This document shows positions 8,108 to 47,586 of a stretch of DNA of 64,000 bases, one piece after another. Positions within the stretch are counted from its first letter, which is position 1, and each line of letters begins with the position of its first letter. This stretch comes from Kribbella soli. GTDB taxonomy: Bacteria; Actinomycetota; Actinomycetes; Propionibacteriales; Kribbellaceae. The position numbers were made by a program, and so were the translations under genes. The stretch covers positions 1,550,001-1,614,000 of the forward strand of contig NZ_SJJZ01000002.1 of assembly GCF_004331345.1 (NCBI RefSeq). Direction: 5' to 3'. The notes beneath the pieces are model-generated. The model was not told where the DNA came from. It saw only the letters and a list, made by a program, of their open reading frames with translations, and ran no database searches.

Positions 8108-8599
8108 TCAGCGGCGGGCGGCCCAGTTGCTCCAACTGGCCTTGGCGCCGGAGTCTCCGATCCGAACCACGTCGTACATGGCGGCGCCCGCGACCAGAAC
8201 GGCGACCACGGTCAACGCCGCGGTGAAGACCTTCGAGGCAGGAGCGAGGAACGTGCGCTTTGCCGGCGTCCGCCCGGTACTCTCCCGCTGCCGCCACCAC
8301 AGGATCACCGCCAGGGCTGCGACCCCGATGGCCGCGTAGATGGCGGTGTCTCCGAGCTCGGCATGCCGATGGATCAGCGGGTTCGGTGAGACGCGGCTCT
8401 CCAGCCACTCGCCGGCGCTCGTCGTGATCGGCACCAGCACGACGACAAGCACCGACAGGATCGCATTCGGACCGGCCAGGCGGCGCCTGGCCGGCGGCCA
8501 CAGTGCGGTGAGCACCAGGAGAGCCGCCGCGAGCGGGAGCAGGACGACGATGGCGTGCACGAGCAGCACGTGGGCGGGAAGACCGTTGACAGTCTGCAT
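8108..8599 (-). CDS. DUF2231-like membrane protein
   Basis: 163 residues with four predicted transmembrane helices. The opening GLPAHVLLVHAIVVLLPLAA carries the family pattern GLP-x-H-x-LLVH with two histidines in the first helix that could hold heme or metal. DUF2231 proteins often sit beside redox or cytochrome genes. Here it closes the flavin electron-transfer operon, 69 bp after the second FMN-binding gene, so a role as a membrane redox partner is inferred. The ATG follows GAAGGAA. Confidence 0.75.
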   Translation of the reverse strand: MQTVNGLPAHVLLVHAIVVLLPLAAALLVLTALWPPARRRLAGPNAILSVLVVVLVPITTSAGEWLESRVSPNPLIHRHAELGDTAIYAAIGVAALAVILWWRQRESTGRTPAKRTFLAPASKVFTAALTVVAVLVAGAAMYDVVRIGDSGAKASWSNWAARR

Positions 8600-8668
8600 G
8601 CGGGTTCCTTCGAGTCGGGTCAGGGAGATCAGGCTGGCAGCCGCTTCTTGGGGAATTCTTGGAGGACT

Positions 8669-9121
8669 TCAGCCCGCCGCACGGAAGTGTGCGGCGTCCA
8701 GCGCGGATTGCAGCGAGCGGCGGTACCCGTCCGACGTGAAAGTTGCCCCCGACACCGTGTCGATCCGGGCGCTCTGAGCCGCGATCGCCTCCTGCTCGAG
8801 CTGCGGAAGCGCGAACGAGCTGATCTCCCGGTCCCGGCCGCCAGACGAGGGATACACCACCGCCGTCACCGTGATCAGTCGATGGCCGCGGACCGTGATC
8901 CGGACCTGCACCGGCCCGTACCGCGTACCCTCCGACGTCCCGTTCACGGTCAGGTCACTGGTGCCCGGCGAAGTACTGACGACGCCAGGCGTTGCTGCGG
9001 GCACCGATGGGCCCGACACGTGGTTCCTGCTCGTCGGGTACAGGAACAACAGCACCAGCAGTACGCCGGTGCTCCCGCCGACCACGAGATTGCGCCGCAG
9101 CCGCACCGAATGCGCTGTCAC
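8669..9121 (-). CDS. FMN-binding domain protein (membrane-anchored, flavinylation substrate) 1
   Basis: 150 residues. An amino-terminal helix (about residues 11-28) anchors it with the rest outside the cell. After a Pro/Ser/Thr linker comes an FMN_bind domain with YGPVQVRITVRG and the flavinylation motif DTVSGATFTSDGY. Thr127 of SGAT is the expected site for covalent FMN attached by ApbE. The GTG start overlaps the stop of its paralogue (GTGA). Together they look like a duplicated pair of electron carriers taking electrons from the flavocytochrome-type reductase upstream. Domains of this type are known in extracytosolic flavin-based electron transfer. Confidence 0.88.
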   Translation of the reverse strand: MTAHSVRLRRNLVVGGSTGVLLVLLFLYPTSRNHVSGPSVPAATPGVVSTSPGTSDLTVNGTSEGTRYGPVQVRITVRGHRLITVTAVVYPSSGGRDREISSFALPQLEQEAIAAQSARIDTVSGATFTSDGYRRSLQSALDAAHFRAAG

Positions 9122-9660
9122 CGCGCACCGGCCTGGTGCGCGGCGTCGAGTGCCGACTGCAACGACTGGCGATACCCGTCGGACGTGAACGTTGCCCCGG
9201 ACACAGTGTCGATGTTCGCGCTCTGCGCCGCCAGGGTCTCGTGGTCGAGTTGCGGGACCGCGTAGCTGTTGATCTGGTCGGTTTCCCCACCTCCGCTCGG
9301 GTGCTGCAGCGCACGTGCCTTGGCGATCCGCCCACCGCGCACGGTCACCTCGACCTGCACCGGCCCGTACTGGGTGTCGACCACACCGCCCGCCACAACG
9401 ACCGAAGACGGGGTCGGGGTACTCGCCCGAGGGACAGTTGGCGTGCTACGCCGAGGGGACGCGCTCGAACGGGCGGACGGTGGTTTTCGTCTGCTGTCGC
9501 GGCTGGACTCCGATGGTCGAGCCGACGGGTCTCTCGCGGGGCCCGAGCTGACCACGGTCGCCTGTCCGCTGGTCGTGTTCGGCTGCGCACTCGCCCGGAA
9601 CGCGACCGCGACCACCGCCGTGGTCGCCACCGTCATCAGCAGCTTGATCCCGCGCCTCAC
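9118..9660 (-). CDS. FMN-binding domain protein (membrane-anchored, flavinylation substrate) 2
   Basis: 180 residues. Signal or anchor helix at residues 8-22, a long Ser/Arg/Pro linker (residues 25-88), then an FMN_bind domain nearly identical in its core to the next gene: YGPVQVEVTVRGG and DTVSGATFTSDGYRQSLQSA with Thr157 as the expected FMN attachment residue. The GTG start follows AAAGGAGTAGG. The longer linker suggests it reaches further from the membrane than its paralogue. It lies 13 bp after the reductase gene and overlaps the second FMN protein, so all three should be made together. Confidence 0.88.
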   Translation of the reverse strand: MRRGIKLLMTVATTAVVAVAFRASAQPNTTSGQATVVSSGPARDPSARPSESSRDSRRKPPSARSSASPRRSTPTVPRASTPTPSSVVVAGGVVDTQYGPVQVEVTVRGGRIAKARALQHPSGGGETDQINSYAVPQLDHETLAAQSANIDTVSGATFTSDGYRQSLQSALDAAHQAGAR

Positions 9661-9673
9661 CTACCTACTCCTT

Positions 9674-11095
9674 TCACCACGAGAACCGTTCCTGGTGCAA
9701 CTGCGCGGCCGGCAGCCCGGCGGCGAGAACAGCCGCACACATCGCATCCATCCAGCGGTCCGGTCCGCAGACATAGACGTCGTACTGCGAGATCCCGGGC
9801 ACCAGGCGCCGTACGGCGTCCTCGTCGGACGAGAAGCGGGCGCGCTCGGGCAACCACGACTCCCGCGCCGCCAGTCGCGGGCCGAGCAGGTAGTGCAGGG
9901 TGATGCCGCGACGATGGGCCAACTGCTCGAGCTCGTCGCGGAACACCAGGTCCGCCACACTGTGCGCGCGGTACACGAGCACCGCGTCGCCAGGCCGGTA
10001 GTCGAGTTCCTCGAGCAGCGCCCGCAGTGGGGTGATACCGATGCCGCAGGCAAACATCGCGACGCGGTCGGTGACCCGTCGCTCCGCGGTCAGCCGGCCG
10101 TACGGCCCTTCGACCGCAACCCGTGTACCCGGCCGCAACCGGGCGAGCCGGCTGCTGCCGTCGCCCGCGGACTTCGCGGTCACCCGGAGCCGGTCCGGCG
10201 CCGGAGACGCCGACAACGAGTACGGGTTGCCCCGTGACCAGCCCGGACCGTCGAGGAACCGGAACACGAAGTACTGGCCCGCCCGGACCGGCATCCGGTG
10301 CAGCCCGCGCCCGCCGAGCAGCACGGTCACCACGCCGGGCGCCTCGCGGATCACGTCTCGCACGGTGAGCCCGTGCCGAAGCGTGCGCCAGAGCGGCAGC
10401 GCCAGGCGGTACAGCACGATCGCGCCGAGTGCGACGCCGTACGCCGACCACCAGTAGAGGCGCGCCACGCGCGAGGTCGTGAAGTCCGCACCGGTCCAGA
10501 TCTCGTGCGGAACCGACAGCCCGACTCCGACGTACGCATACAGGTGGAGCAGGTGCCAAGACTCGTACCGGAGCGCCCTTCGCGCCACCTTGATCGATGT
10601 GAGCACCACGACCGTCAGTGCGGCACTCGCAGCGACCGCGAGCAGCATCCCGCCGTACGTCGTGACGACCGTCCACGTCTCACGCAGCAGGTTGTTGTGA
10701 TCGCGCAACGTGTACCCGGCGAGGATCAAGGCAATGTGCGCCAGCAGAAGGTTGAACGACCAGAAGCCGACCAGCCGGTGGCGACGCGCCAGCTCGTCCT
10801 GCCCGTAGCTCCGCTCGATCATCGGCACCCGTGCCATCAGGAACACCTGCACCAGCAACAGATCCGCGGCCACCAGCCCGGACAGCCGCCCGAGCGAGGT
10901 GAGCAAGTCGGCCGTCCCAGTCACGAGTGTCTGCAACCCGCGGCCCGAAACCCACAGCGCAACGACCACCAGCACGCTGGACCAGCACAGCACCCCGGCA
11001 ACGTCGCGCCACCACACCGGAGTCGGGCGCGGTCGCCGCCGGGCGTGCATCGTCCGCGGCCGAATCGCCTCTCGTACTGGTCCGCGGTACGTCAT
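9674..11095 (-). CDS. Ferric-reductase-like transmembrane flavocytochrome (FAD/NAD(P)H oxidoreductase)
   Basis: 473 residues. Six predicted helices in the first 250 residues carry histidines spaced for two hemes: His106 and His120, and His181/184 with His197. The second half is a ferredoxin-reductase-type module: GQYFVFRF and NPYSLSASP bind FAD, FACGIGITPLRALLEEL binds NAD(P), VYVCGPDRWMDA and the terminal HQERFSW close the fold. It should move electrons from cytosolic NAD(P)H across the membrane. The adjacent extracytosolic FMN proteins and the ApbE gene upstream are the natural acceptors and maturation factor. Preceded by the sensor kinase with a 23-bp gap. Confidence 0.88.
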   Translation of the reverse strand: MTYRGPVREAIRPRTMHARRRPRPTPVWWRDVAGVLCWSSVLVVVALWVSGRGLQTLVTGTADLLTSLGRLSGLVAADLLLVQVFLMARVPMIERSYGQDELARRHRLVGFWSFNLLLAHIALILAGYTLRDHNNLLRETWTVVTTYGGMLLAVAASAALTVVVLTSIKVARRALRYESWHLLHLYAYVGVGLSVPHEIWTGADFTTSRVARLYWWSAYGVALGAIVLYRLALPLWRTLRHGLTVRDVIREAPGVVTVLLGGRGLHRMPVRAGQYFVFRFLDGPGWSRGNPYSLSASPAPDRLRVTAKSAGDGSSRLARLRPGTRVAVEGPYGRLTAERRVTDRVAMFACGIGITPLRALLEELDYRPGDAVLVYRAHSVADLVFRDELEQLAHRRGITLHYLLGPRLAARESWLPERARFSSDEDAVRRLVPGISQYDVYVCGPDRWMDAMCAAVLAAGLPAAQLHQERFSW

Positions 11096-11118
11096 GCTCC
11101 GACGATGACCGCCGATTC

Positions 11119-12351
11119 TTAGTGCTTCCTTGGACCGCCTTCTGCGATGGCGGGCAGGACGAGCTCGAAGGTGGCACCGATCTCGCTCGGGGCGAGCCGG
11201 AGCTGGCCACCGAGCCGGTTCGCGACGTCATGCGCCAGCGCCAGACCGAGGCCGTAGTGCTTGCGCCCGGCTCGGTGGCCGCCTGAGTCGAACCTGCGCA
11301 GGACCCGCTGCGCCGCCTCCGGGTCGATCCCAGGACCCGTGTCGCTGACCGCAAGGATCACGTCGCCGCGCTGTCGTCGTACGGCGATCCGTACCTCCCC
11401 GTCGGCTGGTGTGTGGTCGATCGCGTTGTCGACCAGCGCGACAGTGGCCCGCCGAATCGCGCTCGGCGAGCCGAGAGCACGCGCAGCGTCGTCGTCGGCG
11501 GCCCAGTGGAGCCGTACTCCTGCCTGCGCCGCATGAGCTCCTGCAGCATCGGCCACGTCCCGCGCAATCCGAGCCAGATCTACCGGCTCGTGGCTGTCGG
11601 CACCGCGCGGATCGGCCGCGGCCAGCAGGTCATCGACGATCTCCGCGAGCCGGCGGGTGTCCGCCACAACGCCATCCACGTCGCCAACGATCTCGTCACT
11701 GGCACCAGTGCGACGCAGGGCCCGCCCGAGGACCTGCGCTCGTGTGCTCAGCAACGTCAACGGCGTCCGCAGCTCATGCCCCGCGTCGGCCACGAAGGCG
11801 CGCTGCAACGTCAGCGCCTGCGCAAGCGGCCGTACGGCGCGTCGTCCGATCACCACGCCGAGCAGGCCGGCCAACAGCAGTCCCAACGCCGCAGCCGATC
11901 CCATCGCCTGCAGCAGCCTGGCACGTTCCTTGTGCGCAGTCGCCAGATTCAGAACGGCCTGCACCGGCCTGCCTTCAACCAAACCACTGGCAACGCGGTA
12001 CTCGCCGTCGTCGTTCTCCACGGTGACCAACCTGACCTGTCCAGCGGCTCGCGCCCGTAACGCGGCCAGCTCCGGTAGCAGCTCCGCCGGGAGCCCAGGT
12101 GAGCTGGTGGTTCCCGACGGACCGGTCATGACCAACCAGGCCCCGGCCGGCGGATCGCCGACATCGTCTGCTGTGGCGACAGCTGACCGGAGCAGATCAT
12201 CCGCTGCACCCGCCTGCCCACGCACGACCACGACGGTGACCAGGCCCATCAACAGCAGCATCGCCACCGCGACCAACGCGGCTGCCTGTACGGCGACCCC
12301 GCGCGCGGCCCGACGTACGAGCACCTCGTCGCCGATCGGCCGGCCGGTCAC
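11119..12351 (-). CDS. Sensor histidine kinase
   Basis: 410 residues. Two transmembrane helices (about residues 20-43 and 150-168) enclose a sensory domain of roughly 105 residues outside the cell. A short HAMP-like stretch leads to the H-box FVADAGHELRTPLTLLS (His192), then an N-box VDNAIDHTPADG, G1 SDTGPGI and G2 HYGLGLALA. All catalytic elements are present. GTG start overlaps the response-regulator stop. Located inside the flavin electron-transfer operon, so it probably senses the envelope redox state or a substrate of that system and controls it. The signal is not evident from sequence. Confidence 0.9.
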   Translation of the reverse strand: MTGRPIGDEVLVRRAARGVAVQAAALVAVAMLLLMGLVTVVVVRGQAGAADDLLRSAVATADDVGDPPAGAWLVMTGPSGTTSSPGLPAELLPELAALRARAAGQVRLVTVENDDGEYRVASGLVEGRPVQAVLNLATAHKERARLLQAMGSAAALGLLLAGLLGVVIGRRAVRPLAQALTLQRAFVADAGHELRTPLTLLSTRAQVLGRALRRTGASDEIVGDVDGVVADTRRLAEIVDDLLAAADPRGADSHEPVDLARIARDVADAAGAHAAQAGVRLHWAADDDAARALGSPSAIRRATVALVDNAIDHTPADGEVRIAVRRQRGDVILAVSDTGPGIDPEAAQRVLRRFDSGGHRAGRKHYGLGLALAHDVANRLGGQLRLAPSEIGATFELVLPAIAEGGPRKH

Positions 12352-13007
12352 AACTTCCCCAGCCGGTACCCGAGCCCACGCACCGTACTGATCACTCCCC
12401 GCCCGAGCTTCCGGCGGCAGTAGTGAACATAGGTGTCGACGACTGTCTCCGACTCGGCGTCACCGAAGACCCGATCGAGCAGCTCGGCCCGGGTGAACAC
12501 AGCACCAGGTCGTGCCGCCAGCAAGCCGAGCAGGGCCGCCTCCCGCTCCGACAGTTCCACGGATCCGCCGTCGATCCGTCGTACCGTCCGGGTCGCCAGG
12601 TCCAGGGAGCCACCCGGTACGGCGAGGTGGACAGCATGATCCAGGTGCCGACGAAGCAGGGCACGGACGCGCGCGAGCAGTTCGGTGAGCTCGAACGGCT
12701 TGGTCAGGTAGTCCTCGGCCCCGGCATCGAGACCTTCGACCCGATCCTCCGTGCTGTTCCGCGCGGACAGCACCAGGATCGGCGTACCGACTCCCCGGCT
12801 CCGTAGCCGCGCGATCAGATCGAGGCCTTCGACGGCCGGCAGGCCACGGTCGACGATCATCGCGTCGACCGGCCGCGTGAGGGCGAGGTGCAGGCCGGTG
12901 TGTCCGTCGCCTGCCAGCGTCACGGCGTACCCCTCGTCAGTAAGCACGCGGTCGAGCAGCCGGGCCAGGTCGGCGTCGTCCTCGACCAGCAGGATGCTCG
13001 ACGTCAC
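12348..13007 (-). CDS. OmpR-family response regulator
   Basis: 219 residues. Receiver domain (1-115) with acidic pair at residues 10-11, phospho-acceptor Asp53 in MIVDRGLP, and Lys103 in LTKPFE. The winged-helix domain (125-219) has the OmpR pattern LSEREAALLGLLA, then TVVDTYVHYCRRKLGR and STVRGLGYRL. GTG start; overlaps ApbE upstream and the kinase downstream by 4 bp each. It is the cognate regulator of the kinase. It is not of the NarL type used by DosR, so it is not a candidate for the island operator. Confidence 0.93.
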   Translation of the reverse strand: MTSSILLVEDDADLARLLDRVLTDEGYAVTLAGDGHTGLHLALTRPVDAMIVDRGLPAVEGLDLIARLRSRGVGTPILVLSARNSTEDRVEGLDAGAEDYLTKPFELTELLARVRALLRRHLDHAVHLAVPGGSLDLATRTVRRIDGGSVELSEREAALLGLLAARPGAVFTRAELLDRVFGDAESETVVDTYVHYCRRKLGRGVISTVRGLGYRLGKL

Positions 13008-13753
13008 AGCCGGCCCCAGCCGGCCGTCGCGGACAGGTTGCCATCGGCAAGAACACCGAGCCCTTCGTACCCCGCAAGCAACATTTTGGGCCAGTCGTCA
13101 CCGGCGACGAAAGCCGCAGTCGCCAGCACGTCGGCGTACTCCAGAGACGGGCCGCTGACCGATACCGACAACCATCGGCTCGCCACCGACTGTCCGGTCC
13201 GTGGGTCGTACAGGTGTGCTCCGCGCGCCGCGGTCCCGCTCGTCGCCACCGCTCCGCCGATTCGTGGCACGCTCGCGACCACCCTTCCCGGATCTCGCGG
13301 ATCCTGGACGCCCACGGTGAACGGCTCGCCGCTCGGGCACACCACCAGCACGTCGCCGCCCGCGTTCAGGCACCAGTCCACGTCGACGACCTCCCGCAAC
13401 CGCTCACCGGCCCGCTCGACCGCCCACCCTTTCACCAGCCCGGAAGGATCCCACGTACCGCCAGGCACGTCCGCATCGAAGAGCCCATCGGTCGACTGCC
13501 GCGCGACAGCACACCGCTCCGCGACCTCCCGCACCACCGGATCGACACGATCCCAAGTCATCTCGCCCCGCGCGAGCAGACTCACCGCGCTGCCGGCTTT
13601 GTACGGCGAGAACACCCGATCAACCTCGGTCAGCTCGGCGAAGACCTCCCGCACCGCTGCGTCGGCCCGCAGCGACTCGGCGCCGTCCCCGCGGGCGAGC
13701 ACACTGATGGGCAGCCCCATGATCTGCTCGACCCAACTCCGCCGCGACACCAT
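13004..13753 (-). CDS. apbE: FAD:protein FMN transferase (ApbE family)
   Basis: 249 residues from the ATG at 13753; a TTG 51 bp further out is less likely. The family motifs appear in order: MGLPISV at the start, DRVFSPYKAGSAVS, DPSGLVKGWAVER, CLNAGGDVLV and AVATSGTAARGAHLYDPRTG. ApbE splits FAD and attaches FMN to the Thr of SGAT motifs in extracytosolic proteins. Two such substrates are encoded in the same operon. Most ApbE proteins are exported, but I see no signal peptide here, so it may act in the cytosol or use an unannotated start. It heads the run of overlapping genes leading to the kinase and reductase. Confidence 0.88.
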   Translation of the reverse strand: MVSRRSWVEQIMGLPISVLARGDGAESLRADAAVREVFAELTEVDRVFSPYKAGSAVSLLARGEMTWDRVDPVVREVAERCAVARQSTDGLFDADVPGGTWDPSGLVKGWAVERAGERLREVVDVDWCLNAGGDVLVVCPSGEPFTVGVQDPRDPGRVVASVPRIGGAVATSGTAARGAHLYDPRTGQSVASRWLSVSVSGPSLEYADVLATAAFVAGDDWPKMLLAGYEGLGVLADGNLSATAGWGRL

Positions 13754-13808
13754 GCCGCAACCGTACGTCGGCGTACTCACCGGCTGCCGTGAGGGACGGT
13801 GCAAGTTG

Positions 13809-14486
13809 TCAGTAGAAGACTCCGCCTGGAGCGCGTGCTGTGTCGTCGAACGCCCAGGTCAACTGGTTGCGTACGGCGATGACACCGTCGACGGCTGCGA
13901 TGAGCTGTTCGGCGACGGCGGCGGTGCTGCGCTTCTCCACCTGGCCTGTCAGCGTCACGACGCCGTCCACCACCGACACGTCCACGGCTCGTGGGTCGTC
14001 CCACAGGTGACGCTCGATGACGTCGCGCCGTACCCGGGCGAGAGTCTCCTGGTCCGAGGCGAGATACGCGCTGAGTAGATCGGAGCGCGCCACGATCCCG
14101 ACCAGCTTGCCGCCGTCGGTCACGACCAGGCGGGTGATCCCCCGGGCCGCCATCAGCCGTGCGGCCTCGTCCAGCGTGCAGCCGCCTTCCACGGTCACCG
14201 CGGGACTGGTCATCAACTGCTCAGGGGTCAACGCCTCGGCCTTCGAGTGCGCCTTGCGGTGGGCCAAGTGGACTGTATGTCGCGGTGACCGCTGGAACTC
14301 CTCCTTGCGCAGAAGGTCCGTTTCGGACACCACGCCGACAACCCGGCCGAACACATCGCGGACCGGAACCGCGCTGATGTGATGCTCGGCAAGGATCGCG
14401 GCAACGGCCTTGTACGGCGTGTCTTTCTCGACGGTGATGACGTCCCGGGTCATCACGTCGGAGACTGTCAGGAAGTTGCGCATCAT
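13809..14486 (-). CDS. CBS-pair and BON domain protein
   Basis: 225 residues. Two CBS motifs (about residues 8-65 and 92-145), TVSDVMTRDVITVEKDTPY and QLMTSPAVTVEGG, then a BON domain (about 150-212) with VSVVDGVVTLTGQVEKR. CBS pairs bind adenine nucleotides and sense energy charge. BON domains bind membranes or lipid. A two-CBS protein (Hrp1, Rv2626c) is a strong DosR-regulon member in mycobacteria, but it lacks the BON part. Start overlaps the stop of the stress-protein gene upstream, so it is in the aldolase/stress-protein operon. Two ATGs are adjacent (14486 or 14483). Confidence 0.88.
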   Translation of the reverse strand: MMRNFLTVSDVMTRDVITVEKDTPYKAVAAILAEHHISAVPVRDVFGRVVGVVSETDLLRKEEFQRSPRHTVHLAHRKAHSKAEALTPEQLMTSPAVTVEGGCTLDEAARLMAARGITRLVVTDGGKLVGIVARSDLLSAYLASDQETLARVRRDVIERHLWDDPRAVDVSVVDGVVTLTGQVEKRSTAAVAEQLIAAVDGVIAVRNQLTWAFDDTARAPGGVFY

Positions 14487-15331
14487 GACTCCTCGTGCCG
14501 GCGGACGATCGCGACAGGCGAGTCCGCGTGGTGCAGAAGGCTCTGGCTGACGGAACCCATCAGCAGGCCGGCGACGCCGCCACGGCCGCGCGAGCCGACG
14601 ACGACCAGCGAGGCGGTTTTCGACATCTTGATCAATCGCGTACTGGCTCGGCCCTCGGCAACGGAAGCGCGTACGTCGACCATCGGGTACTTGTCCCGGT
14701 ACGCCGCGAGACTCTCGGCGAGCCAGGTCTTCAGCAGAGCCTTGGCGCCGGCGACCGACGCCGCGTGCTCCGCCTGCGGCTGCCAGCAGTACACGACCCG
14801 CAGCGGCTGTCCGCTCCGCGATGCCTCCTCGAACCCGAACAGCACTGCGTCCTCGGAGTCAGGCGAACCGTCCGTGCCGACGACGATCGGTCCGGTACGG
14901 CGTTCGCCGCGCACCACGACCACCGGACACGCAGCCTTGGCCGCGACCGCCGTCGCCACAGAGCCGAGCACCGCAGCCGACATCCTGCTCCGCGACCGTG
15001 AGCCGACCACGACCATCTCGGCCCCGCCAGCCTCCATCAAGAGCGCGTTCTGCGGGTCCTCGGCCGCGAGCCACCCGGACCCGCCCTCGTACCCGAGCCG
15101 GTCACGTGCGAACTGCACTGCCTCGTCGAGCTCGTGCTGCAACGTACCCAGCGGCATCCGCGGCGGTACGTAGCCGTCCATGCCGACCGCGGGCCAGCGC
15201 TTGAGATCATCCAGGTACGCCCGCACGACCCGCACCGGCAGGTCCCACTGTTCGGCCGCGTCCACGGCCCAGCGCAGCGCGATCTGTGCCTCGGGCGTGT
15301 CGTCCACACCGACGAGGATGTACTTCGTCAT
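14483..15331 (-). CDS. Universal stress protein, tandem domain
   Basis: 282 residues from ATG 15331 after GAAGGGA. Two Usp domains. The second has a standard nucleotide loop, VGSRGRGGVAGLLMGSVSQS, and starts VVGTDGSPDSEDAV. The first opens VGVDDTPEAQIALRWA, but its loop is VGSRSRSRMSAAVLGSVA, with Ser/Arg in place of two loop glycines, so it may bind ATP poorly. Tandem Usps such as Rv2623 bind ATP and slow growth in mycobacteria. Sits between the class I aldolase (13-bp gap) and the CBS-BON gene (overlap). It is the closest relative in the window of the degraded Usp at 45.8-46.0 kb. Confidence 0.92.
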   Translation of the reverse strand: MTKYILVGVDDTPEAQIALRWAVDAAEQWDLPVRVVRAYLDDLKRWPAVGMDGYVPPRMPLGTLQHELDEAVQFARDRLGYEGGSGWLAAEDPQNALLMEAGGAEMVVVGSRSRSRMSAAVLGSVATAVAAKAACPVVVVRGERRTGPIVVGTDGSPDSEDAVLFGFEEASRSGQPLRVVYCWQPQAEHAASVAGAKALLKTWLAESLAAYRDKYPMVDVRASVAEGRASTRLIKMSKTASLVVVGSRGRGGVAGLLMGSVSQSLLHHADSPVAIVRRHEES

Positions 15332-15344
15332 GGCCGGATTCCCT

Positions 15345-16238
15345 TCATTCACTGGGGTGCTGGACGAGGATTTCCTTCAGCGCGTCGACGAAGGCCAGCG
15401 ACTCGTCGTACCCGCGCTGCCACACGTTCCGCCCGAAGATCAGGCCCAGACCGCCGGCGTCCATCGCCTGCTCGGCCTTGCGGTACATCGTGTCGTCGCC
15501 GGCCTTCGAGCCGCCGGACACCAGCACCAGCGTGCGGTTCGCGGACCGGACCACGCCGTCGATCGCCTGCTGCGGACTGAAGATCTCTTCGTACGGCGGC
15601 TTTACGTTGTCACGCTTGGCCGGATGCGGGAAGTTCACCTTCACCACGTCCGCGCCGAGTTCGCTCGCGACCCGAGCGGCGTAGTCGACGGCATAGAACG
15701 AGTCCTTGCCACCCTTCGCCTCGATCGCTTCGCCCCGCGGATACGCCCACACGACCAGCGGCATCCCGAGCCGCTCGGCGTCCGCGCGGATCTGGCGGTA
15801 CTGCGCAAAATCGGTCTCCTGCGCCGGCGATCCGACGTACAGCGTGTAGCCGACCGCGTCGGCGCCCAGCCGTACTGCGTCCTCGACACTCGCGTGCACC
15901 GGCGACAGCGCCGCCGCGTCGGACGGGATGTCGGTCTTGCCGTTCAGCTTGAGGATCAGCGGGATCTCACCGGCGTAGTCCCAGAAGAACTTCTCCGCCA
16001 GCCCGATCTGGATCGCGACACCGTTGAACTCCCCGGCGACCGCCAGCTTCATGATGTACGCCGGATCGGACGCCTTCGGGTTCGCGAAGAAGTCCCGCGG
16101 CCCGTGCTCGAGCCCTTGGTCGTACGGCAGGAACAACGCCGTGCCGTTCCGCAGACCGTGGTCGAACAGGATCCTGCGCAGCCGGGCCTTCTTCCCGGTG
16201 CTCAGGCCGAGCTCGTTGAGCGATGCCCGTTTCTGCAT
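15345..16238 (-). CDS. Class I fructose-bisphosphate aldolase (DhnA/FbaB type)
   Basis: About 297 residues. Metal-independent DhnA-type aldolase: FLPYDQGLEHGPRDFF near residue 40, GADVVKVNFPHP with the Schiff-base Lys, LVLVSGGSKAGDD and GLGLIFGRNVWQR for phosphate binding. Cleaves or forms fructose 1,6-bisphosphate. Three in-frame ATGs overlap (16247, 16244, 16238); the last is best spaced from GGGAG. An operator lies 80 bp upstream. Heads the run with the stress protein and CBS-BON genes. A second, inducible aldolase beside PPDK, GAPDH and PFOR fits a glycolytic programme for hypoxia, which is inferred. Confidence 0.9.
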   Translation of the reverse strand: MQKRASLNELGLSTGKKARLRRILFDHGLRNGTALFLPYDQGLEHGPRDFFANPKASDPAYIMKLAVAGEFNGVAIQIGLAEKFFWDYAGEIPLILKLNGKTDIPSDAAALSPVHASVEDAVRLGADAVGYTLYVGSPAQETDFAQYRQIRADAERLGMPLVVWAYPRGEAIEAKGGKDSFYAVDYAARVASELGADVVKVNFPHPAKRDNVKPPYEEIFSPQQAIDGVVRSANRTLVLVSGGSKAGDDTMYRKAEQAMDAGGLGLIFGRNVWQRGYDESLAFVDALKEILVQHPSE

Positions 16239-16310
16239 GATCATCATCTCCCATTACCAATCTCACGCTGCCAGGCCCGCCAAGGGAGTGCCGTCAGCCC
16301 TCGATCCACA

Positions 16311-16325
16311 GGGACCTTCGGCCAC
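16311..16325. promoter_or_regulatory. DosR-box-like operator before the aldolase operon
   Basis: GGGACCTTCGGCCAC, 13/15, centre 80 bp before the aldolase start. No second copy at 21-24 bp that I can defend. Confidence 0.6.
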
Positions 16326-21838: not shown

Positions 21839-22834
21839 TCACCGGAGCCGTGACGCGGACGGCTGGAAGACAGCTCGGCCGCGGGACCGGATCGTCACCG
21901 CGGGTGCCACACCCGGCCGGACCTCGAGCAGGTACAGCTCGCCGGTGTGTCCGTCCTTCGCCCAGTCGAGCGTCGTCGGACGGCGGAAGTGTTTGTCGGC
22001 CACGACCGACCAGCGGGCGAGTTCCTGAAGCTCCTCGTCGGTCAGCACGAGGGCGGCGCGTTCGGCGGGCGTCGTCGGAACAGGCCGCGTCCCGCGCGGG
22101 TCGGCGTACACGGTCTTGGTGAGTTTGGCGCCGCGGTGCCGCACGATCAGCGGACGCGCGCCGGGGTGGACCGAGTACAGGTCGGCATCGGCCTGCGGTG
22201 GTTCGCCCAGGCCCCAGGACGCGCGGACCCGGACGAAGGTGTTCTCGCCGCGGGCCGTGCCCGAGCCACCGACGTCGGCACGCACCATCCGCTGCACGGT
22301 CACCGGCATCACGGCCTTCAGGTGGTCGATCGCCTCGGCCTCCCGGTTGCCGACGGCAACGGCGTTGTAGAGCGACGCGAAGCACCGCCGGCAGGCCGCG
22401 ACGACATCTGCGCCGCTGGTGAGGTGCAGGAAGACGTCGTCCTGGACGGCGTCCGCGGACGCCACCGGGCTGCAGCGGACCGCAACCTCCGTGCCGTCAC
22501 CACCCAGCTCCTCATACGCGTCGAGGATCTCGTCGGCCACTGCTGCGGGCAACGACGCGTCGCAGAAGGCCGAGCGGATCTTGGCCGCTGCCACGACGAG
22601 GTCGCGACCGGCGCGGAATCTGCGGATCTCTTGGGCGATCGTCGGGGCGAGCCCAGCGTGGTGGACGAATTCGCGGTACGCCTTAGCGGTCACCGCGAAC
22701 CCCTCGGGGACGCGGATGCCTTCACGCGCAAGCTCGGCCAGCCGGGCTGCCTTCACACCGATCTGCTCCGGATCAACGTCCGCCTCGAACCGCATCGGTT
22801 CACCGTCGAGCCGTACGACGTACTCGCTGTTCAT
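21839..22834 (-). CDS. Stand-alone PEP-synthase/PPDK-type ATP-grasp domain protein
   Basis: 331 residues, matching only the nucleotide- and pyruvate-binding half of PEP synthase or PPDK: IGVKAARLAELAREGIRVPE at the start, a VAVRCSPVASADAVQDDVFL block that corresponds to the VRSSATAED element, and a closing GELYLLEVRPGVAP that matches the EWAxD-xGxxxxLQARPE end. The phospho-histidine and PEP-utilising domains are absent, so it cannot be a complete synthase. In PFOR operons it may act with a separate phosphotransfer protein or regulate pyruvate entry. Strong ribosome site (AGGAGGATG). 5 bp before porC and 18 bp after the GAPDH remnant. Confidence 0.8.
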   Translation of the reverse strand: MNSEYVVRLDGEPMRFEADVDPEQIGVKAARLAELAREGIRVPEGFAVTAKAYREFVHHAGLAPTIAQEIRRFRAGRDLVVAAAKIRSAFCDASLPAAVADEILDAYEELGGDGTEVAVRCSPVASADAVQDDVFLHLTSGADVVAACRRCFASLYNAVAVGNREAEAIDHLKAVMPVTVQRMVRADVGGSGTARGENTFVRVRASWGLGEPPQADADLYSVHPGARPLIVRHRGAKLTKTVYADPRGTRPVPTTPAERAALVLTDEELQELARWSVVADKHFRRPTTLDWAKDGHTGELYLLEVRPGVAPAVTIRSRGRAVFQPSASRLR

Positions 22835-23448: not shown

Positions 23449-23463
23449 AGGGCCGAACGTCCC
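23449..23463. promoter_or_regulatory. Operator between divergent small membrane-protein genes
   Basis: AGGGCCGAACGTCCC, 14/15, 85 bp before the ATG at 23541 and 51 bp from the GTG at 23405. A weak partner (ACGTCTTGCTGCCCT, 23473-23487, 9/15) is centred 24 bp away. Confidence 0.6.
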
Positions 23464-24534: not shown

Positions 24535-24888
24535 GGCGACCTCCTCCAAGCCGTCCAGTCTGGATACAGGGGACCGGCTCTCCGGAGCGGGGCCGTCTTG
24601 ACGACGGTGGGTCTCGTGGCCCCTGGCCACCTCTTCCTGGTCCGCTTCCGGCGAGCCGGTAGTCCCCCTGCATGTCCAGATTCGCGCGACGAGCGATTCG
24701 TCGTCAGGGCCCAAGGTCCCGTTTTCCCCGGACCACCTGACCCGCGTACTCGGTGATCAGGACATCCTCGGCGGTACGTCCTCCGTAGCCGCCAGATCGC
24801 GTACGACGGGAATCCCGCCGGCGACCCGCGAGCCCAGGGCACCCTCCACGGCGCAACCGGGTTTGGCAGCGGCCCTCAAGTGCAGCGA
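24535..24888. other. 354-bp non-coding stretch upstream of the Rv1733c-like gene
   Basis: No reading frame with convincing content. It holds the operator pair at 24706-24743 and a weaker site CGAGCCGGTAGTCCC at 24652-24666 (10/15), which lies nearer the start codon. The leader from the strong operator to the ATG is about 170 bp, longer than elsewhere. Confidence 0.55.
24706..24743. promoter_or_regulatory. Operator pair upstream of Rv1733c-like gene 1
   Basis: AGGGCCCAAGGTCCC (24706-24720, 14/15) and CGGACCACCTGACCC (24729-24743, 10/15), centres 23 bp apart. Confidence 0.6.
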
Positions 24889-43806: not shown

Positions 43807-43842
43807 AGGGCCCAACGTCCCGACTTGGTCGCCGAACGGACC
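43807..43842. promoter_or_regulatory. Operator pair before P-type ATPase 2
   Basis: AGGGCCCAACGTCCC (43807-43821, 13/15) and the weak GTCGCCGAACGGACC (43828-43842, 9/15), centres 21 bp apart; 53 bp to the ATG. Confidence 0.6.
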
Positions 43843-47571: not shown

Positions 47572-47586
47572 AGGGCCTAAGGTCCC
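47572..47586. promoter_or_regulatory. DosR-box-like operator before Rv1733c-like gene 2
   Basis: AGGGCCTAAGGTCCC, 14/15, centred 72 bp before the ATG at 47507. Confidence 0.65.

Follow-up and report, generated by a model that had tools for sequence, protein, structure and literature searches.

Introduction

MsrQ-like flavinylation clusters belong mostly to Actinobacteria, where they are broadly conserved and common, according to passages of a survey whose pooled set took in clusters with one or more predicted signal peptides (PMC8238504). SaFMN3 from Streptomyces azureus (PDB 8p2a) carries threonyl-FMN (-184 mV), its reduced form reacts with O2, and the study describing it regards flavin transferases as extracellular, membrane-bound enzymes (PMC10339131). 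Most of the characterized ApbE proteins (FAD:protein FMN transferases) are exported lipoproteins, and cytosolic ones exist (PMC12052999). Here we analyzed a stretch of 64,000 nucleotides of the Kribbella soli genome (contig NZ_SJJZ01000002.1, positions 1,550,001 to 1,614,000; hereafter the window), which contains a minus-strand gene cluster encoding ApbE, a response regulator, a sensor histidine kinase, a transmembrane reductase and two FMN-binding carriers, FMNa and FMNb, with a gene for a DUF2231 membrane protein at its end. We consider it rather likely that this cluster encodes a flavinylation-based transmembrane electron export system that is loaded by ApbE in the cytosol and controlled by its own two-component system.

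In the proposed mechanism, the reductase would draw electrons from cytosolic NAD(P)H, pass them to FAD and, by way of two b-hemes, carry them over the membrane to the two membrane-tethered carriers, i.e. FMNb, whose short tether would hold it close to the membrane, and FMNa, whose long tether could extend into the cell wall. ApbE would place FMN on both carriers, most likely ahead of their export, and the embedded two-component system would sense the envelope or redox state and govern the unit from a leaderless apbE promoter. Gene content, motifs, conservation, the paralogous carrier pair, the orthology of the two-component system and the lack of an export signal in ApbE form the sequence-level basis of this proposal, and from them we infer the electron direction, the order of the carriers, cytosolic loading, the target of the two-component system, the reach into the cell wall and the acceptor, for which Fe(III), O2 or an envelope partner are the candidates. 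Three points weigh against the proposal: the unit contains no acceptor gene, no operator for the response regulator was found in the K. soli genome, and export signals were judged by hydrophobicity alone (KD15). A role centered on Fe(III), one centered on O2 and the disposal of reductant under hypoxia are rivals of similar weight. With the parts list, electron export in a Gram-positive soil genus becomes testable, and the embedded two-component system gives a handle on when such systems switch on.

A conserved six-gene unit

The seven genes named in the original prediction were all located where it had placed them, each backed by a Pfam match (Table 1), with E-values of 7.6e-14 (Ferric_reduct) and 4.2e-07 (NAD_binding_1) for the reductase and of 1.2e-10 and 5e-08 (FMN_bind) for the carriers. 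They do overlap or nearly touch, since according to their coordinates the ApbE/response regulator, response regulator/kinase and FMNa/FMNb junctions are 4-base overlaps, and the gaps between kinase and reductase, reductase and FMNa, and FMNb and DUF2231 measure 23, 13 and 69 bases, respectively. A genome search revealed no FMN_bind genes beyond FMNa and FMNb. The claim that the locus holds a complete set, i.e. an electron source, a transmembrane path, two carriers and the enzyme that loads them, is supported at the sequence level for each of its parts.

A close reductase orthologue (73-92%) is present in 15 of 37 other Kribbella genomes, and around all 15 the order ApbE, response regulator, kinase, reductase, FMNa, FMNb is kept, with FMNb missing from one copy. 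The same six-gene order was found in a metagenome-assembled genome (MAG) of Frankiaceae (L116/L040), and partial copies lie at contig edges in other MAGs. As the order recurs across 15 further Kribbella genomes and the Frankiaceae MAG, the grouping of these genes is not due to chance. The core unit comprises these six genes without DUF2231, which was dropped as a core gene since it ends the unit in half of the Kribbella copies (8/16, the window included); the statement that DUF2231 closes the operon was therefore right as to the site of the gene and did not hold for its being a regular member.

Table 1. Features of the unit and its surroundings in the window
Feature	Position	Strand	Basis
DUF2231 membrane protein, facultative last gene	8108..8599	-	Pfam 2.8e-07; GLPxHxLxxH and HxxLG motifs
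FMNb, membrane-anchored FMN-binding carrier, short linker, Thr127	8669..9121	-	Pfam FMN_bind
FMNa, membrane-anchored FMN-binding carrier, long basic Pro/Ser/Thr linker, Thr157	9118..9660	-	Pfam FMN_bind
NOX/MsrQ-like transmembrane reductase, two predicted b-heme sites and FAD/NAD(P)H domain	9674..11095	-	Pfam, fold
Sensor histidine kinase, two membrane segments	11119..12351	-	Pfam HisKA/HATPase_c
OmpR/PhoB-type response regulator	12348..13007	-	Pfam Response_reg and Trans_reg_C
apbE, FAD:protein FMN transferase, 249 residues	13004..13753	-	Pfam ApbE (PF02424) 5.5e-33
Probable -10 element TACGGT, 6 bases before apbE ATG, leaderless start	13760..13765	-	Aligned upstream regions
DeoC/FBA-like aldolase, universal stress protein (USP) and CBS-BON genes, mutually overlapping	13809..16247	-	Coordinates, Pfam
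DevR/OsdR-type box GGGACCTTCGGCCA, 64 bases ahead of the aldolase gene	16311..16324	+	Retained in L128 and L129
Exact GGGACNTTNGGCCC sites, e.g.	246-259, 23450-23463, 24707-24720, 43808-43821, 47573-47586

The transmembrane reductase

The original prediction had assigned the electron path to a heme/FAD transmembrane reductase, and sequence and model point the same way. The presumed heme ligands H106, H120, H184 and H197 are invariant in an alignment of 21 homologues, as are the NPYSLS-type FAD motif and the GxG..P and CG motifs of the dehydrogenase part; the C-terminal ERF is conserved in the same alignment and Pfam detects PF00175. The AlphaFold model (pLDDT 80) has as its best PDB fold match, along its full length, the bacterial NADPH oxidase SpNOX (E 1.4e-16). 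According to Pfam and this match, the protein fuses a ferric reductase domain to an FNR-type dehydrogenase in a NOX fold, as NOX proteins do, and as a PF01794 protein encoded no more than five genes away from FMN_bind or ApbE (Pfam and coordinates) it also belongs to the MsrQ-like group.

That the closest structural relative is SpNOX would suit a protein acting mainly as a bacterial NADPH oxidase, whose electrons end on O2 and whose carriers act as a sink that uses up O2 or give rise to peroxide. However, SpNOX is known as a single chain without FMN_bind carriers, and the retention of two anchored carriers in the Kribbella unit suggests transfer further outward. Even with the use of O2 by reduced SaFMN3 (PMC10339131) taken into account, we regard such an oxidase as unlikely.

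A second alternative, that the unit is an assimilatory ferric reductase providing Fe(II), seems doubtful as well, by a slightly smaller degree. A VIT1 gene accompanies 153 MsrQ-like clusters in a passage of PMC8238504, and a second reductase, about 12 kb beyond the unit, lies near a second DUF2231 gene and VIT1-like and Dps-like genes; on the other hand, the unit itself lacks genes for an iron transporter or a siderophore and genes of the Fur type, and among the sampled loci VIT1-like genes are close to only two other reductases (L062, L069). The second locus (L073, G000:C3 ~1538000-1546800, just ahead of the window), whose reductase is NOX-like, also holds genes for an FNR-type reductase and for a molybdopterin protein of the MsrP-like kind, and its gene set suggests a link to iron.

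The carrier pair and the site of flavinylation

The predicted DTVSGATFTS flavinylation sites were located in both carriers, at Thr157 of FMNa and Thr127 of FMNb, and FMNb matches the solved domain 8p2a of SaFMN3 at 7.6e-23. The view that the two carriers differ mainly in linker length understated their divergence: over a shared region of 110 residues the two copies in the window have 57% identity, and besides the linkers, which are long, basic and rich in Pro/Ser/Thr in FMNa and short in FMNb, the type of anchor is specific to each paralogue. In the carrier tree Kribbella FMNa forms a separate clade (100/98), and the pair therefore predates the genus. FMNa and FMNb are, as judged from their sequences, diverged paralogues kept as a pair.

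Both carriers begin with a hydrophobic segment (KD15 2.28 and 2.39), as do 76 of the 82 carriers sampled, in which basic residues mostly precede the segment. Export through Tat is possible: Arg-Arg stands ahead of the hydrophobic core in 60 of these 76, but KR, RS and LR variants also occur. The presence of TatC, found in 44 of 45 genomes, was dropped as proof of Tat export, because so widespread a gene is uninformative on this point.

The window ApbE carries DPRTG and YADVLATA motifs and has neither a signal peptide nor a hydrophobic N-terminus, its best KD15 in the first 60 residues being 1.15, whereas E. coli Ftp, a known lipoprotein used as positive control, reaches 1.99 and clears the same cut-off. 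It consequently departs from the usual exported form, with its N-terminal lipoprotein signal or signal peptide. A hydrophobic stretch was likewise absent from all 55 cluster-linked ApbEs, examined over the 60 in-frame residues that precede the domain (a few being duplicate records of one genome), and from the N-termini of 30 further ApbEs of the class Actinomycetes (L182-L211), which brings the sample to about 85. Neither of the two ApbEs encoded by the K. soli genome has such a stretch; the second belongs to another cluster (L074, G000:C7 ~470500-473500), in which further genes encode a small heme-type membrane protein, a NuoF-like protein and a short Ser-rich protein that has an RRRW N-terminus and no FMN_bind domain.

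Since the ApbEs lack and the carriers possess a hydrophobic N-terminus, flavinylation probably takes place in the cytosol prior to carrier export, unlike with the usual exported ApbE, and the tacit assumption of extracellular loading by ApbE is not borne out. The same lack of an export signal could also mean that the FMN domains face the cytosol beside ApbE and that nothing is exported. This we consider very improbable, because the Arg-rich N-termini followed by a single hydrophobic segment predict an N-in/C-out topology, the carrier linkers look like cell-wall spacers, and the transmembrane hemes of the reductase would be needless.

The absence of an export signal raises, for the whole class sample, the question of where actinobacterial carriers receive their flavin. 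As a tentative generalization, to which we give somewhat less than an even chance, Actinomycetes may flavinylate their carriers in the cytosol and then export them with covalent FMN, possibly via Tat. If this is true, cytosolic loading would spare the export of FAD, whereas other bacteria have an exported ApbE. The literature searched contained no statement of cytosolic flavinylation before export in Actinobacteria, which is weak evidence of novelty.

The two-component system and DUF2231

The prediction that the operon has its own two-component system agrees with the conservation of that system throughout this lineage. Within this cluster type, in Kribbella and Frankiaceae MAGs, the response regulators are 70-96% identical to that of the window, whereas those adjoining other reductase clusters are at most 46% identical and the best matches in four other genomes (55-61%) do not adjoin the reductase. 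By sequence, the system is orthologous solely within the clusters of this lineage. A single ancestral two-component system for all reductase clusters was ruled out, as Streptomyces and others carry unrelated systems and the closest relatives of the regulator were found at other loci. In an alignment of 18 homologues, the extracytoplasmic loop of the kinase has a conserved TADDVGDPP motif and no conserved Cys or His. A direct repeat near CTCAGC-N5-CTCAGC, with an 11-base period, occurs upstream of apbE in three loci (L140, L141, L142) and is a possible OmpR-type operator of the embedded regulator.

In one genome of another family, an orthologous regulator-kinase pair directly adjoins a DUF2231 gene without a reductase, and DUF2231 stands beside the kinase in a second genome of the same genus. 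Because of this arrangement, DUF2231 may belong with the two-component system rather than with electron transfer. Its AlphaFold model (pLDDT 51.9) was too poor for a structure search. DUF2231 genes adjoin USP or CBS genes in other genomes (L154, L159, L163), and for this reason the protein is perhaps a membrane protein linked to stress or hypoxia.

Promoter and upstream region

The probable -10 element of apbE reads TAC[CG]GT (once TACCTT) at the same position in 9 of the 14 Kribbella upstream regions that were aligned, where the sequence further upstream mostly differs. In K. soli the CBS-BON gene ends 55 bases before apbE; this aldolase-USP-CBS arrangement precedes apbE in 4 of the 16 Kribbella copies, two of which have a strong hairpin between CBS and apbE, and a third a P-type ATPase gene (L129 9984-12692) that separates both units. 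These hairpins and the inserted gene, together with the conserved -10-like element, favor an autonomous promoter, and the unit is probably transcribed from its own leaderless apbE start. Read-through from CBS into apbE is possible in K. soli, as no terminator-like hairpin lies between them there. A ten-gene operon starting from the box at 16311 was at first favored and then weakened by the hairpins and the inserted gene of the sister species and by the -10-like element at apbE. Scans for sigma-70 promoters and terminators gave results at chance level.

The exact pattern GGGACNTTNGGCCC has 12 sites in the 8.785-Mb genome, five of them in the window (Table 1), and the reversed control pattern has one. 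These boxes are close to AGGGCCGATCGGCCCT, the OsdR consensus of the DevR/OsdR dormancy regulon (PMC5069765). The window's box island also harbors genes for USPs, HSP20, PFOR, PntB and hydrogenase-type FeS/FNR proteins, and the 64-kb window is likely a hypoxia/dormancy region. A 99-residue frame at 22853-23152 matches only the C-terminal half of GAPDH and adjoins a protein with the PPDK N-domain only (21839-22834); both are possibly gene fragments.

With five of the 12 genomic sites in this window, a box ahead of the aldolase gene, USP, HSP20 and PFOR genes among the neighbors and no hairpin to stop transcription from CBS, the unit could belong to a DevR/OsdR-type hypoxia/dormancy regulon as one of its arms, reached by read-through from the aldolase-USP-CBS genes, and dispose of excess reductant when O2 is short. 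We judge this possible and rather unlikely, since the neighborhood is confined to the four Kribbella copies, three of them interrupted as described, and apbE has a promoter-like element of its own; moreover, no box lies directly before apbE, the box at 16311 preceding the aldolase gene three genes upstream. A hypoxic role bears on the conditions of use of the unit and would fit with electron export by the reductase and its carriers.

Comparison with known systems

Boxes near the OsdR consensus, clustered close to USP genes, liken the window to a DevR/OsdR regulon, and the link of the unit to them differs in lacking a box directly ahead of apbE and in being confined to some Kribbella. SpNOX (8qt6, 8qq7) matches the fold of the reductase best over the full length and ranks among its best matches in sequence, at about 18% identity; it is not known to act together with flavinylated carriers. 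SaFMN3 resembles the Kribbella carriers in its homologous FMN domain, its N-terminal anchor and a flavin transferase gene close by, and differs in having three FMN domains per chain, whereas the Kribbella unit has two separate single-domain carriers.

Because MsrQ-like flavinylation clusters have already been described, as passages of PMC8238504 attest, the locus is of lesser novelty than the original prediction suggested. The Kribbella unit differs from those clusters in the orthologous two-component system and the conserved carrier pair that it contains, and neither a signal-less ApbE nor an embedded two-component system is described in the searched passages of that survey. What is known is the MsrQ-like flavinylation cluster as such; what is new here is the embedded orthologous two-component system, the retained pair of carriers and an ApbE that apparently stays in the cell.
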